This document shows positions 39,864 through 42,853 of a stretch of 45,384 nt of DNA, piece by piece. Under the pieces are notes generated by a model, which saw only the letters and a program-made list of their open reading frames with translations, was not told the origin of the DNA and ran no database searches. The position numbers were made by a program, and so were the translations under genes. The stretch is from Methanobacteriota archaeon (GTDB taxonomy: Archaea; Thermoplasmatota; Thermoplasmata; RBG-16-68-12; SOIM01). Where the stretch lies: contig CP070767.1 of assembly GCA_020345725.1 (NCBI GenBank), positions 26,342 through 71,725 on the forward strand. Reading direction: 5' to 3'. Positions within the stretch are counted from its first letter, which is position 1. Each line of letters opens with the position of its first letter.

Positions 39864-40466
39864 ATGGAACGACTGGAATGGACTGAGGAATGCGTGATGT
39901 CTCCCCTCCGTAAAGAGAAAATCAAGATGAAGGTCTGCATGGTTGGTGACAATTCTGTCGGTAAGACCAGTCTTGTGAGGAGGTTTGTGTTTGACAACTT
40001 CGAAGACAAGTACATCGCCACTCTTGGAGCGAAGGTGACCAAGAAGTTGTCAACTGTGAAATTCCCTGAGCTTGGAGTCGAATATGAAGTTGCTATGATA
40101 ATCTACGACATCATGGGTGCGAGGGAATTCCGAAGTCTTTTGAGGGAGGCCTATTTCTATGGTGCCCAGGGATTGATCGCAGTTTGCGATTTGACATCTG
40201 GTGAGACGTTCGATAGCCTGGAGGATTGGATTCAGAACGCCTACGGTGTGACTGGTAGAATTCCTCTGGAGCTCTTGGGAAACAAGGTCGATCTGGAGGG
40301 CGAACTGGTTGTATCCAAGAACGAAATGGACAAATTGGGGCGGAGCTACGGGTCTCCTCATAAGCTCACCAGCGCCAAGACGGGAAAGAACGTGGAGCTC
40401 GCATTTGAGGAAATAGCAGAGATGGCGGCAAAGAAGACTATCAAGTCCAAACTTCTAGAAACTTAG
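39864..40466 (+). CDS. Ras/Rab-like small GTPase
   Basis: The 200-residue protein has all the GTPase boxes: G1 GDNSVGKTS (28-36), a switch-I threonine in YIATLGAKV, G3 DIMGA (82-86), G4 NKVD (140-143) and G5 TSAK (169-172). The position after G3 Gly, normally the catalytic glutamine in Ras and Rab, is alanine. No lipid-attachment cysteine is at the C-terminus. Archaeal Ras-like GTPases are thought to be ancestral to eukaryotic ones, with unknown roles. ATG 39897 (preceded by GAGGA) and ATG 39930 are alternative starts; the longest is given. Confidence 0.85.
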   Translation: MERLEWTEECVMSPLRKEKIKMKVCMVGDNSVGKTSLVRRFVFDNFEDKYIATLGAKVTKKLSTVKFPELGVEYEVAMIIYDIMGAREFRSLLREAYFYGAQGLIAVCDLTSGETFDSLEDWIQNAYGVTGRIPLELLGNKVDLEGELVVSKNEMDKLGRSYGSPHKLTSAKTGKNVELAFEEIAEMAAKKTIKSKLLET

Positions 40467-40557: not shown

Positions 40558-40899
40558 TTGGTCAATATTGATGAGATAAGAGAATACCGATCGAGAATGA
40601 ATGAGAAGATACTAGCATCTGGCAATAGGGATATTCAAAGGTTCTTTGCTCTTGACAATCGGGTCTACGAGAAGGGGGCACTGTCTGCCAAGACGAAGGA
40701 ATTGATGGGACTGGTCGCCTCCCTGGTCCTCAGGTGCAATGAGTGCGTGTTCTATCACATCGACAGGTGCGTGGAGGAAGGTGTGACGGCAGAAGAGTTC
40801 TATGAGGCCTTCTCAGTGGCGCTTGTGATTGGTGGCTCAATAACCATTCCCCATGTCAGATATGCATTTGATGTTCTGGACGAGATTGCGGGAAACTAG
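40558..40899 (+). CDS. Carboxymuconolactone decarboxylase-like (AhpD-type) protein
   Basis: The 113-residue protein has the AhpD-type redox motif CNECVFYHIDRC (C60-x2-C63, His67), in the helical CMD fold (ALSAKTKELMGLVASLVLRC before it, GVTAEEFYEAFSVALVIGG after it). These proteins move electrons to peroxiredoxins or act in thiol chemistry. It starts at TTG 40558 behind GGGGGTG. The DsrE gene follows after 74 bases and the next three genes are sulfur-related, so it may belong to the same thiol/sulfur system. Confidence 0.88.
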   Translation: MVNIDEIREYRSRMNEKILASGNRDIQRFFALDNRVYEKGALSAKTKELMGLVASLVLRCNECVFYHIDRCVEEGVTAEEFYEAFSVALVIGGSITIPHVRYAFDVLDEIAGN

Positions 40900-40973
40900 G
40901 AATTGTAATTCCCATCGATTACATGCTAATGCATATAAGGTCGAAAATGCTCATTCGAAGAAAGGTGAAAAAC

Positions 40974-41390
40974 ATGGCAGATAAGATGTCAATTATACTC
41001 TTTTCCGGGACAGTAGATAAGCTCATGCCTGTGGGCATCCTGGCTTCTGGAGGAGTAGCAATGGGAATGGATGTCGAGATATTCGCTACCTTCTGGGGAC
41101 TTCAAGCTCTCTCAAAGGGAGCCTCTGAGCAGCCTCCAAGGATGAGCAAGGATTTTGAGGATATGGCACCCATGATGATGCAGATGATGCAAGAGAAGAA
41201 TGTGCCCTCCTGGATTGACACCCTGAAGAACGCCAAGGAACTTGGGAATGTGAAGGTGTACGCCTGCTCGATGACCATGGACTTGATGGGAATGAACAAG
41301 GACAGCTTCATTGACATCGTGGACGATGTCGTGGGCGTCGGAGAGTTCGTGGACAATGCGAAGGACGCAAAGATAACACTATTTATCTAG
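40974..41390 (+). CDS. DsrE-family sulfur-carrier-like protein
   Basis: The 138-residue protein has the DsrE/F/H alpha-beta fold: MSIILFSGTVDKLMPVGILASGG (N-terminal strand and helix), VEIFATFWGLQAL, then VKVYACSMTMDLMGM with a cysteine at the usual place, and the final VVGVGEFVDNAKDAKITLFI. A methionine-rich loop (MAPMMMQMMQEK) is typical of the DsrE2-like group. These proteins relay sulfur as persulfides. The ATG has AAAGGTGA upstream. A GCATATAAGG box at about 40931 gives it its own promoter. TusA follows 24 bases later. Confidence 0.87.
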   Translation: MADKMSIILFSGTVDKLMPVGILASGGVAMGMDVEIFATFWGLQALSKGASEQPPRMSKDFEDMAPMMMQMMQEKNVPSWIDTLKNAKELGNVKVYACSMTMDLMGMNKDSFIDIVDDVVGVGEFVDNAKDAKITLFI

Positions 41391-41414
41391 TGTGGTCGCG
41401 ATTGAGGTGCTAGA

Positions 41415-41657
41415 ATGTCTGAGGAACTAGAACCAACAGTGACGGTAGATGCCAGGGGCAGCTTTTGCCCTGGTCCGTTGATGGAACTGATTCGTGCGAT
41501 TAGGGAAGGACAGGTCGGGGACATAATCGCCGTGCTCTCAAGCGATACAGGCTCTCGGAGAGATATTCCGCTTTGGGTCGATAATGCCGGGCACGAAATG
41601 GTTGGCATTTTCGACAAGGAAGACCACGCCAGGTTCATCGTGAAGAAGTTGAAATAG
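41415..41657 (+). CDS. tusA: TusA/SirA family sulfur-transfer protein
   Basis: The 80-residue protein has the TusA signature DARGSFCPGPLMEL with the persulfide-carrying Cys18 followed by Pro, then a two-layer alpha/beta body ending FDKEDHARFIVKKLK. It takes sulfane sulfur and passes it to a partner such as DsrE, which lies just upstream, or to tRNA- or cofactor-modifying enzymes. The SQR-like gene follows 41 bases downstream. Confidence 0.93.
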   Translation: MSEELEPTVTVDARGSFCPGPLMELIRAIREGQVGDIIAVLSSDTGSRRDIPLWVDNAGHEMVGIFDKEDHARFIVKKLK

Positions 41658-41698
41658 GCGGAACTGCTGTCCTTGACATACTGGGAGGAGGCAGGAAG

Positions 41699-42853
41699 AT
41701 GCCCAAGAAAGTGGTAGTTCTGGGAGGTGGTGTGGGCGGAACGATGGTAGCCAACGCATTAGCGAAGGAACTGAAGAAGGAAGCTGAAGTCACCATTGTC
41801 GATGAAGATGGGAAACACGTCTATCAACCCGGCTTTGTGTACATCTCCTTTGGGAAAGAAAAGCCCCACAAGATCGTCAAGGACGAGAGGAAGCTACTAA
41901 GAAAGAATGTTGGACTGGTAGTGGACAAAGCTGTAAAGATTGACAAGGAAGACAGGAGAGTGCAGCTAGCAAATGGCTCTCTGGATTATGACTATCTCGT
42001 CCTGGCTACTGGCGCAGAAATCCATCCGGAAGAGATTCAGGGCTATGAGGATGCACATCACTTCTATGACATGCAGGCCTCTGTCAAGCTAAAGAATGCA
42101 CTGGCGAGGTTCAATGGTGGAAAGATCGTTGTAGCCATCGGCGGTGTACCATACAGGTGCCCCCCTGCCCCAGCAGAGTCCATTTGTCTTCTCGATTACT
42201 ACTTCCACAAGAGGGGAATTAGGAAAAAGGTGGACCTCTGGTTCATGTCTCCACTAGTGAGGATCTTCCCTCTGGAAACGGTAGATCCATTCGTCGCAAG
42301 GGCAATGGAGGAAAAGAACGTGAATACACAGACCTTCTTCAACGTGGAGTACGTGGATCCAAAGAAGAAGATGGTTCACTCCTTGGAAGGAGAGTCGATT
42401 GACTACGACCTGCTGATACTGATTCCTCCCCACAAAGGGGCCCAGGTGATCAGAGATTCCGAATTGGGGGATAGAGGAGGCTGGATTCTCACTGATAGAC
42501 ACACTCTGCAAGCCGAGAATGCTGATGACCTATACGCAATCGGAGACGCCACCAATCTTCCCGTGTCAAAATCCGGAGCAGCAGCCCACTATGAGAGCCC
42601 GATTGTAGTTGATGGCATAGTCTCGGACATGACAGGTACTCCTCCGTCGAAGAAATATGATGGAAGGGTTACCTGCTTCTGTGATGGTGGGTTCAAAAAG
42701 GGGATAATGATGGATTTTGATTACGAACACCCCCCATCTCCGCCACCTTTCTCAAGAAGGGCCTACTGGAAGAAGATTCTCTTCAACAAACTGTACTGGT
42801 GGCTTTTGCCTAAGGACCGATTGCCAGGGTTCTTGATGGGTTCCGTGAAGTAA
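41699..42853 (+). CDS. Sulfide:quinone oxidoreductase-like FAD protein
   Basis: The 384-residue flavoprotein has an N-terminal dinucleotide fold (VVVLGGGVGG, 5-14), ATGAEI at 103-108, and GDATN at 282-286, which binds FAD. It has CPPAPAE with Cys154, corresponding to one SQR catalytic cysteine. Its C-terminal region has a CFC pair (Cys326, Cys328) and a hydrophobic/amphipathic tail (YWKKILFNKLYWWLL) suitable for membrane attachment. SQRs oxidise sulfide to persulfide or polysulfide and feed electrons to quinone, but the quinone site cannot be checked here. The start has GGAGGAGG upstream. It shares an operon-like layout with TusA and DsrE. Confidence 0.85.
   Translation: MPKKVVVLGGGVGGTMVANALAKELKKEAEVTIVDEDGKHVYQPGFVYISFGKEKPHKIVKDERKLLRKNVGLVVDKAVKIDKEDRRVQLANGSLDYDYLVLATGAEIHPEEIQGYEDAHHFYDMQASVKLKNALARFNGGKIVVAIGGVPYRCPPAPAESICLLDYYFHKRGIRKKVDLWFMSPLVRIFPLETVDPFVARAMEEKNVNTQTFFNVEYVDPKKKMVHSLEGESIDYDLLILIPPHKGAQVIRDSELGDRGGWILTDRHTLQAENADDLYAIGDATNLPVSKSGAAAHYESPIVVDGIVSDMTGTPPSKKYDGRVTCFCDGGFKKGIMMDFDYEHPPSPPPFSRRAYWKKILFNKLYWWLLPKDRLPGFLMGSVK

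Follow-up and report, generated by a model that had tools for sequence, protein, structure and literature searches.

A three-gene cassette, dsrE2-tusA-sqr, was identified on the forward strand of a 45,384-nucleotide stretch of archaeal DNA (the window; contig CP070767.1, positions 26,342 to 71,725) from the Thermoplasmata, and it is conserved well beyond the window's own family. The kept trio, which encodes a DsrE2B-type sulfur carrier, a TusA sulfur carrier and a type III SQR-like flavoprotein, is probably a sulfide-oxidising unit predicted to pass its leftover sulfur to carrier proteins in an apparently anaerobic lineage. To our knowledge, how sulfane sulfur leaves SQR in prokaryotes without rhodanese is not settled; the trio provides a small protein set for a direct look at SQR-to-TusA transfer, occurring with an sHdr-LbpA-Apr island in one genome and without one in the window's family, and it bears on whether sulfide can serve anaerobic archaea of sediments as a source of electrons. 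The window's genome (G000) is a single archaeal contig of 1.99 Mb rated 76% complete, and the incompleteness of metagenome-assembled genomes (MAGs) weakens every statement of absence made below.

The initial annotation placed four open reading frames in a row at 40558–42853 (+), for a CMD protein, DsrE2, TusA and an SQR-like protein, and proposed that together they form a sulfane-sulfur relay. All four were found there, and the spacing it gave as 24–74 bases corresponds to gaps of 74 (CMD to dsrE2, with dsrE2 starting at 40974), 24 and 41 bases. The relay is supported for SQR, TusA and DsrE2 by their cysteines, their linkage and a genomic island in a relative (G403); membership of the CMD protein is not. 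The features of the locus are as follows.

40558–40899, + strand: CMD/AhpD-like protein, 113 aa, TTG start (PF02627, 56.5 bits)
40931–40939, + strand: TATA-like box GCATATAAG, 35 bases 5' of the dsrE2 ATG (read directly from the sequence)
40974–41390, + strand: DsrE2B-type sulfur carrier, 138 aa, single Cys98 (PF13686, 107.9 bits)
41415–41657, + strand: TusA sulfur carrier, 80 aa, Cys18 in FCPGP (PF01206, 70.8 bits)
41699–42853, + strand: type III SQR-like flavoprotein, 384 aa, with Cys154, Cys163, Cys326 and Cys328 (NF049943, 380.9 bits, cut-off 525)

Linkage of dsrE2, tusA and sqr across the Thermoplasmata

An SQR-like match at E ≤ 0.001 was obtained in 35 of 61 genomes (G000 and 60 relatives), and a draw from the phylum returned an SQR match at E ≤ 1e-40 in 55 of 389; family f22 of this draw includes single-contig genomes rated 99% complete. 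The neighbourhoods examined comprised 24 loci from the 61-genome set, 20 stretches from the phylum draw, which were chosen by hand, mostly as the best-scoring, and one of which holds two SQR genes, and two paralogues. Neighbouring genes were called by a caller scored on codon use; the calls are poor in L043 and L048, and no sqr was called in L076, L078 and L079, and the counts given here rest on tblastn positions. With SQR identity at or above 38% (tblastn; a limit set after inspection of the table), tusA and dsrE2 lie beside sqr, within 2.6 kb, at 33 of 35 distinct loci, and below it at none of 12, three of which (L020/L051, L022 and L023) sit on contigs that end no more than 0.4 kb upstream of sqr, leaving the carrier side unseen. 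The genes thus stay linked in relatives, a point on which the initial annotation had let its proposal stand or fall, and dsrE2-tusA-sqr is a real cassette whose adjacency goes beyond chance.

The two exceptions above the limit are L087, with neither tusA nor dsrE2, and L092. At the latter (L092:3760-5118, genome G413) a fragment of dsrE2, its start, continues in frame into sqr (452 aa) and tusA is missing, which may reflect a deletion, a fusion or an assembly error. One locus of the window's family, which is labelled f1 and has five genomes (G000 to G004), was counted as trio-bearing on the strength of a match to the second half of dsrE2 (L005/L033, genome G003); at this locus (L033:5274-5633, L005) neither the CMD gene nor the first half of dsrE2 is present between a GTPase gene and tusA, through either a deletion or an assembly join.

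Gene order is dsrE2-tusA-sqr everywhere except at two f14 loci (L045 and L046), which read tusA-sqr-dsrE-DUF1641. A DUF1641-like gene stands downstream at all 17 trio loci of families f14, f15, f22 and f28 and at none in f1 to f4 (Pfam confirms four), and an ArsR-type regulator gene adjoins the trio at 10 of the 11 loci of f2, f3 and f4 (Pfam on two), the contig of the eleventh, L025, ending inside sqr; the window's trio has no ArsR gene beside it. Apart from these two, most families have different flanking genes, which argues that recent ancestry alone does not hold the trio together. Pairwise distances of SQR, TusA and DsrE2 correlate with r of 0.80–0.82 over 31 loci, a result that shared ancestry alone could give. 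On the SQR tree, which is midpoint-rooted with long branches and leaves out L005, L023, L024, L025 and L092, the trio label requires four changes, compared with a mean of 9.1 after shuffling.

Catalytic and carrier cysteines

The SQR-like protein matches Pyr_redox_2 (PF07992, 79.7 bits) and FCSD_central (PF21706, 36.1 bits), both above cut-off, and with its N-terminal GGGVGG it has, by sequence, the disulfide-reductase fold with a flavin adenine dinucleotide (FAD)-binding N terminus. The type III SQR model of the selenoprotein subtype, NF049943, was the top NCBIfam model by a wide margin, although the score stays below its cut-off. Of the 36 distinct sequences of solved structures matched in the PDB, human SQOR (8dhk) scored best (143.7 bits), and Cys154 and Cys326 align with its chain cysteines 161 and 339, which we take to be the catalytic Cys201 and Cys379 of the precursor. 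Human mitochondrial SQOR is a type II enzyme whose acceptors are small thiols, whereas TusA is encoded next door to the window's protein. Across an alignment of 41 SQR-like rows Cys154 is present in all and Cys326 in 40. The initial annotation had pointed to Cys154 and to a CFC pair near the end of the protein: by alignment, Cys154 and, from the pair, Cys326 are the catalytic cysteines, while Cys328 is an extra residue outside the catalytic pair, present in all 14 rows of the window's SQR clade (support 100/97) and in 0 of 27 elsewhere. The catalytic cysteines, whose loss it had named as a possible failing, are therefore present as judged by sequence alignment. Eight named SQR relatives come from MAGs labelled Methanomassiliicoccales (three), Thermoplasmata (four) and Ca. 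Thermoplasmatota (one).

A selenoprotein assignment was considered and rejected. The window's sqr has no in-frame stop, and hence no in-frame TGA for selenocysteine, its score does not exceed 525, and the inner stops flagged in relatives (TGA in four, TAA in one) proved to be terminal stops once the frames were read.

Both carriers keep a single cysteine. TusA matches PF01206 above cut-off, and its sole cysteine, Cys18, lies in FCPGP and so within a CPxP motif; the best solved structure is 1pav (Ta1170/Ta1414, 88.6 bits), and this is the only TusA-domain match found in its genome. DsrE2 matches DrsE_2 (PF13686) above cut-off, and its one cysteine, Cys98, is invariant in 18 of 18 aligned rows. 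The best solved structure is 2qs7 (155.4 bits), which is SSO1126, named DsrE2B in PMC4175335; the DsrE2B of Metallosphaera cuprina has C99 (PMC4175335). The domain, Cys98 and the closeness to SSO1126 place the protein in DsrE2B, with the counterpoint that NCBIfam NF047629 scores 72.1 bits, below its cut-off of 210. The genetic link of DsrE2B to Dsr or Hdr genes is not seen in the window, where the gene is linked to sqr and six CCG-protein loci lie elsewhere in the genome; such a link to an Hdr system is present in G403, of family f15.

Proposed route of sulfur and electrons

We consider it fairly likely that the cassette specifies a membrane-side sulfide oxidation unit that brings sulfur carriers of its own. 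The SQR, probably of type III, would take sulfide at Cys154/Cys326 and send two electrons via FAD to a quinone in the membrane, with the persulfide staying on SQR; TusA Cys18 would then pick up the sulfane sulfur, and DsrE2B, by way of Cys98, would keep it or hand it onward. In relatives with sHdr-LbpA the sulfur would then be oxidised to sulfite, and in the window's family, because sHdr-LbpA was not found there, the final sulfur acceptor would probably be something else. The observed basis is the presence of the genes, their cysteines, the conserved linkage, and linkage to sHdr-LbpA-Apr in one genome of another family; from these we infer the direction of the reaction, the quinone, the membrane contact, the order of the carriers and sulfur transfer as such.

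The strongest support for the relay comes from the sHdr-LbpA-AprBA linkage in G403, where the cassette and a second tusA-dsrE2 pair are convergent with the island (one genome read through). The island runs lplA, dsrE, lbpA, hdrB2, hdrC2, a hypothetical gene, hdrA (345 aa), hdrB1, hdrC1, aprA and aprB, with aprA (911.4 bits) and aprB (139.9 bits) both above their NCBIfam cut-offs and the hdr names resting on domain matches and the published order. An island of this kind is the known path by which sulfur bound to TusA becomes sulfite. LbpA has been shown to be indispensable for sulfur oxidation by the Hdr-like system, for which TusA has been proposed as the feeding carrier (PMC6067878). The doubled tusA-dsrE2 recurs at four further f15 loci (L076 to L079), the hdr side having been read in G403 alone. 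On paper, the island together with the doubled tusA-dsrE2 and sqr-DUF1641 (G403:C12, L118:2084-9150 with L075:3735-7103) makes up a route from sulfide to adenosine 5'-phosphosulfate in one Thermoplasmata genome.

The initial annotation saw no Hdr-like or rhodanese gene locally, which is true for the listed open reading frames of the window. The whole genome encodes 12 CCG domains in six proteins, whose surroundings, read by eye and, for some of them, with family searches, are a hydrogenase-linked Hdr, HdrA clusters, a GlcF-like gene, an Etf-linked gene and an HdrC-HdrB pair beside dihydrolipoyl dehydrogenase; no sHdr cluster (hdrC1B1A-hyp-hdrC2B2) was found at any of the six loci. LbpA was not found in the five f1 genomes, each having one strong GcvH match (146.1 bits in G000) and no second strong GCV_H match; weak matches of about 21 bits occur in two of the five, that of G000 (21.7 bits) standing beside a biotin-carboxylase-like gene. 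Rhodanese (PF00581) is present in 10 of 21 genomes searched, and the window has no rhodanese gene with which to make up an rhd-tusA-dsrE2 cassette. For f3 and f4, an sHdr system was sought and rejected: the second GcvH-like genes of G006, G011 and G015 lie in stretches with no hdr cluster, on contigs of which two are short (9.4 and 13.5 kb).

A membrane quinone is plausible in the window's genome because a MenA-like gene is present at position 1757162 (TIGR00751, 118.7 bits, above the cut-off of 102.15; the remaining MenA models fell short of theirs), with a UbiE/MenG-like methyltransferase gene (below cut-off), a polyprenyl synthase gene and a geranylgeranyl reductase gene nearby. At G000:C1:233383-237214 (L069:2383-6214) an EtfBA-like pair, recognised by eye, is followed by a membrane CCG protein, an arrangement that we take to resemble the ETF:quinone oxidoreductases of anaerobes. 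A haem o synthase gene (G000:C1:621897, L107:4898-5752; TIGR01473, 233.7 bits, above cut-off) is present in this genome, which has no COX1 match.

Several results speak against a sulfide-oxidising unit of this kind. Searches of 11 f1, f2 and f3 genomes, G000 included, gave no match to a haem-copper oxidase or a rhodanese, and G000 has one molybdopterin oxidoreductase match, so that neither quinol nor sulfur has an obvious sink. MqnA/D was not found in G000, and no MenD above cut-off in 21 genomes, so that the quinone head group is unexplained. The C-terminal stretch of SQR gave no significant signal of an amphipathic membrane helix, its hydrophobic moment being equalled or exceeded in 1074 of 2000 shuffles, and an AlphaFold model of SQR built on seven sequences was too poor for use (mean predicted local distance difference test score 47.3). 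The M. cuprina DsrE2B reacted with nothing tested in the published work (PMC4175335). Trio-bearing SQRs do not form one clade, the window's clade standing beside seven trio-less rows (fork 94/90), so the trio was gained or lost more than once; and in the Cuniculiplasma proteome the locus tags of an SQR and a DsrE/DsrF-like protein are far apart (PMC7285479), so not every SQR-DsrE pair need be linked.

The absences of a rhodanese and of a haem-copper oxidase in f1 to f3 would also fit a cassette that serves sulfide detoxification and sulfur supply instead of energy, TusA and DsrE2 delivering the SQR persulfide for tRNA thiolation or for the assembly of cofactors or Fe-S clusters in a rhodanese-less anaerobe. 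The single TusA-domain match in G000 and the want of an LbpA-like second GcvH in the five f1 genomes point the same way, but the same cassette occurs at the sHdr-LbpA-AprBA island in G403 and PMC4175335 associates DsrE2 with Dsr or Hdr systems, and we regard this detoxification and supply role as unlikely. Also doubtful is a bolder form of the sulfide-oxidation proposal, in which anaerobic Thermoplasmata with no terminal oxidase, rhodanese or sHdr-LbpA would use SQR-TusA-DsrE2B as a branch of sulfur metabolism ending on an undescribed acceptor, the clade-specific C-x-C SQR perhaps passing its persulfide to TusA through Cys328.

The flavoprotein might alternatively run in reverse, with quinol or another donor reducing sulfane sulfur delivered by TusA/DsrE2 to sulfide, a sulfur respiration with no molybdenum enzyme. 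This would suit f1 to f3, which yielded no haem-copper oxidase, and the EtfBA-like pair and membrane CCG protein at 233–237 kb could feed the quinone; Cys328, however, is no marker of anaerobic use, since it also occurs in f4, a family with a haem-copper oxidase in 21 of its 22 genomes, and the f15 island belongs to the oxidative type, although both Apr and Hdr may be reversible. We judge the reverse direction highly improbable.

A possible oxidising acceptor lies at G000:C1:842239-845078 (L070:6240-9079), where a dihydrolipoyl dehydrogenase gene (TIGR01350, 528.1 bits, above cut-off) is followed by HdrC-like and HdrB-like genes; these may be a separate thiol-redox module. That the HdrC-HdrB pair is a reduced sHdr-like system oxidising the trio's sulfur gains something from Sulfolobales, in which such a dihydrolipoyl dehydrogenase gene flanks dsrE3A-dsrE2B-tusA-hdr (PMC4175335, PMC5461723). 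It seems quite unlikely nonetheless: no LbpA was found, the 17-kb stretch read by eye holds no second HdrB/C pair and no short HdrA, the pair is about 770 kb from the trio, and a role in glycine cleavage is equally likely, with GcvP-like genes (by eye) about 6 kb away.

Comparison with known systems, and the flanking genes

The closest published arrangement found is that of M. cuprina, in which TusA (Mcup_1722), SQR (Mcup_1723) and DsrE4 (Mcup_1724) have successive locus tags in a sulfur island (PMC4175335), so that tusA, sqr and a dsrE gene are consecutive as in the window. There, however, the DsrE belongs to group 4, which is defined by its position downstream of SQR, and the island includes thiosulfate:quinone oxidoreductase genes (PMC4175335), whereas in the window a DsrE2B-type gene comes first; the M. 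cuprina-like order tusA-sqr-dsrE does occur in f14, at L045 and L046. Sulfolobales share the DsrE2B and TusA families with the window, as the match to SSO1126 reflects, and carry dsrE3A-dsrE2B-tusA beside hdrC1B1AhyphdrC2B2 (PMC4175335, PMC5461723); the window's carriers are joined to sqr instead, and G403 has both arrangements. In 'Ca. Yaplasmales' (formerly RBG-16-68-12), deep-sea Thermoplasmatota and probable anaerobes without cytochromes bc and bd, sqr has been reported (PMC9239135), and the window's genome presumably belongs to this order; TusA, DsrE and rhodanese are absent from the main text of that paper.

No literature description of dsrE2-tusA-sqr in Thermoplasmata was found. Because M. 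cuprina TusA-SQR-DsrE4 and the 'Ca. Yaplasmales' sqr are in print, the kind of system, TusA-SQR-DsrE, is already known; no description was found of the cassette with DsrE2B first, of how widely it is spread in Thermoplasmata, or of its presence where sHdr-LbpA and rhodanese were not found.

The CMD protein, which the initial annotation counted in the relay, matches PF02627 and TIGR00778, both above cut-off, with 1vke as its closest solved structure (122.2 bits). Residues E48, C60, C63 and H67 fit the spacing of the AhpD motif, presumably E-x11-C-x2-C-x3-H. Its gene adjoins the trio in four of the five f1 genomes (G000, G001, G002 and G004), and among the neighbourhoods examined it was found at no trio locus outside f1. 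Within f1 an upstream GTPase gene and a downstream malic enzyme gene are equally kept, so the position of the CMD gene is no evidence of shared function, and on this distribution its membership of the relay is not supported. The protein is probably a bystander or a local thiol-redox helper outside the conserved relay. The GTPase, a small Ras/Roc-like protein (39864–40466 in the window), is encoded directly upstream of CMD and stands on that side of the trio in all five f1 genomes.

Between CMD and dsrE2 stands the TATA-like box, a hint at a possible promoter of the trio's own. The dsrE2 frame is open from 40923, but the ATG at 40974 is preceded by GAAAGGTG, with a ribosome-binding-like GGTG just 5' of the ATG, and these signals make 40974 the probable start rather than 40923.

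The ArsR proteins beside the trio in other families were considered as sensors of the SqrR/BigR/sHdrR type, for which two cysteines are the criterion among sulfane-sulfur ArsR repressors (PMC12423496). This was rejected on an alignment of eight, which has one invariant cysteine column only; the f2 proteins have a second cysteine near the N terminus. Inverted repeats rich in A and T, among them ATATTCGAATAT and GCATATAC/ACATATGC, were seen by eye 5' of dsrE2 in some of L007 to L016 and are possible ArsR operators. Beside the trio's ArsR gene in f3 and f4 lies a gene for a protein of 103–114 aa with an MCMRW motif; the one copy scanned, that of L042, has no Pfam match. Copies are located at L042:7761-8072, L041:6372-6692, L044:10879-11223 and L049:5234-5554.

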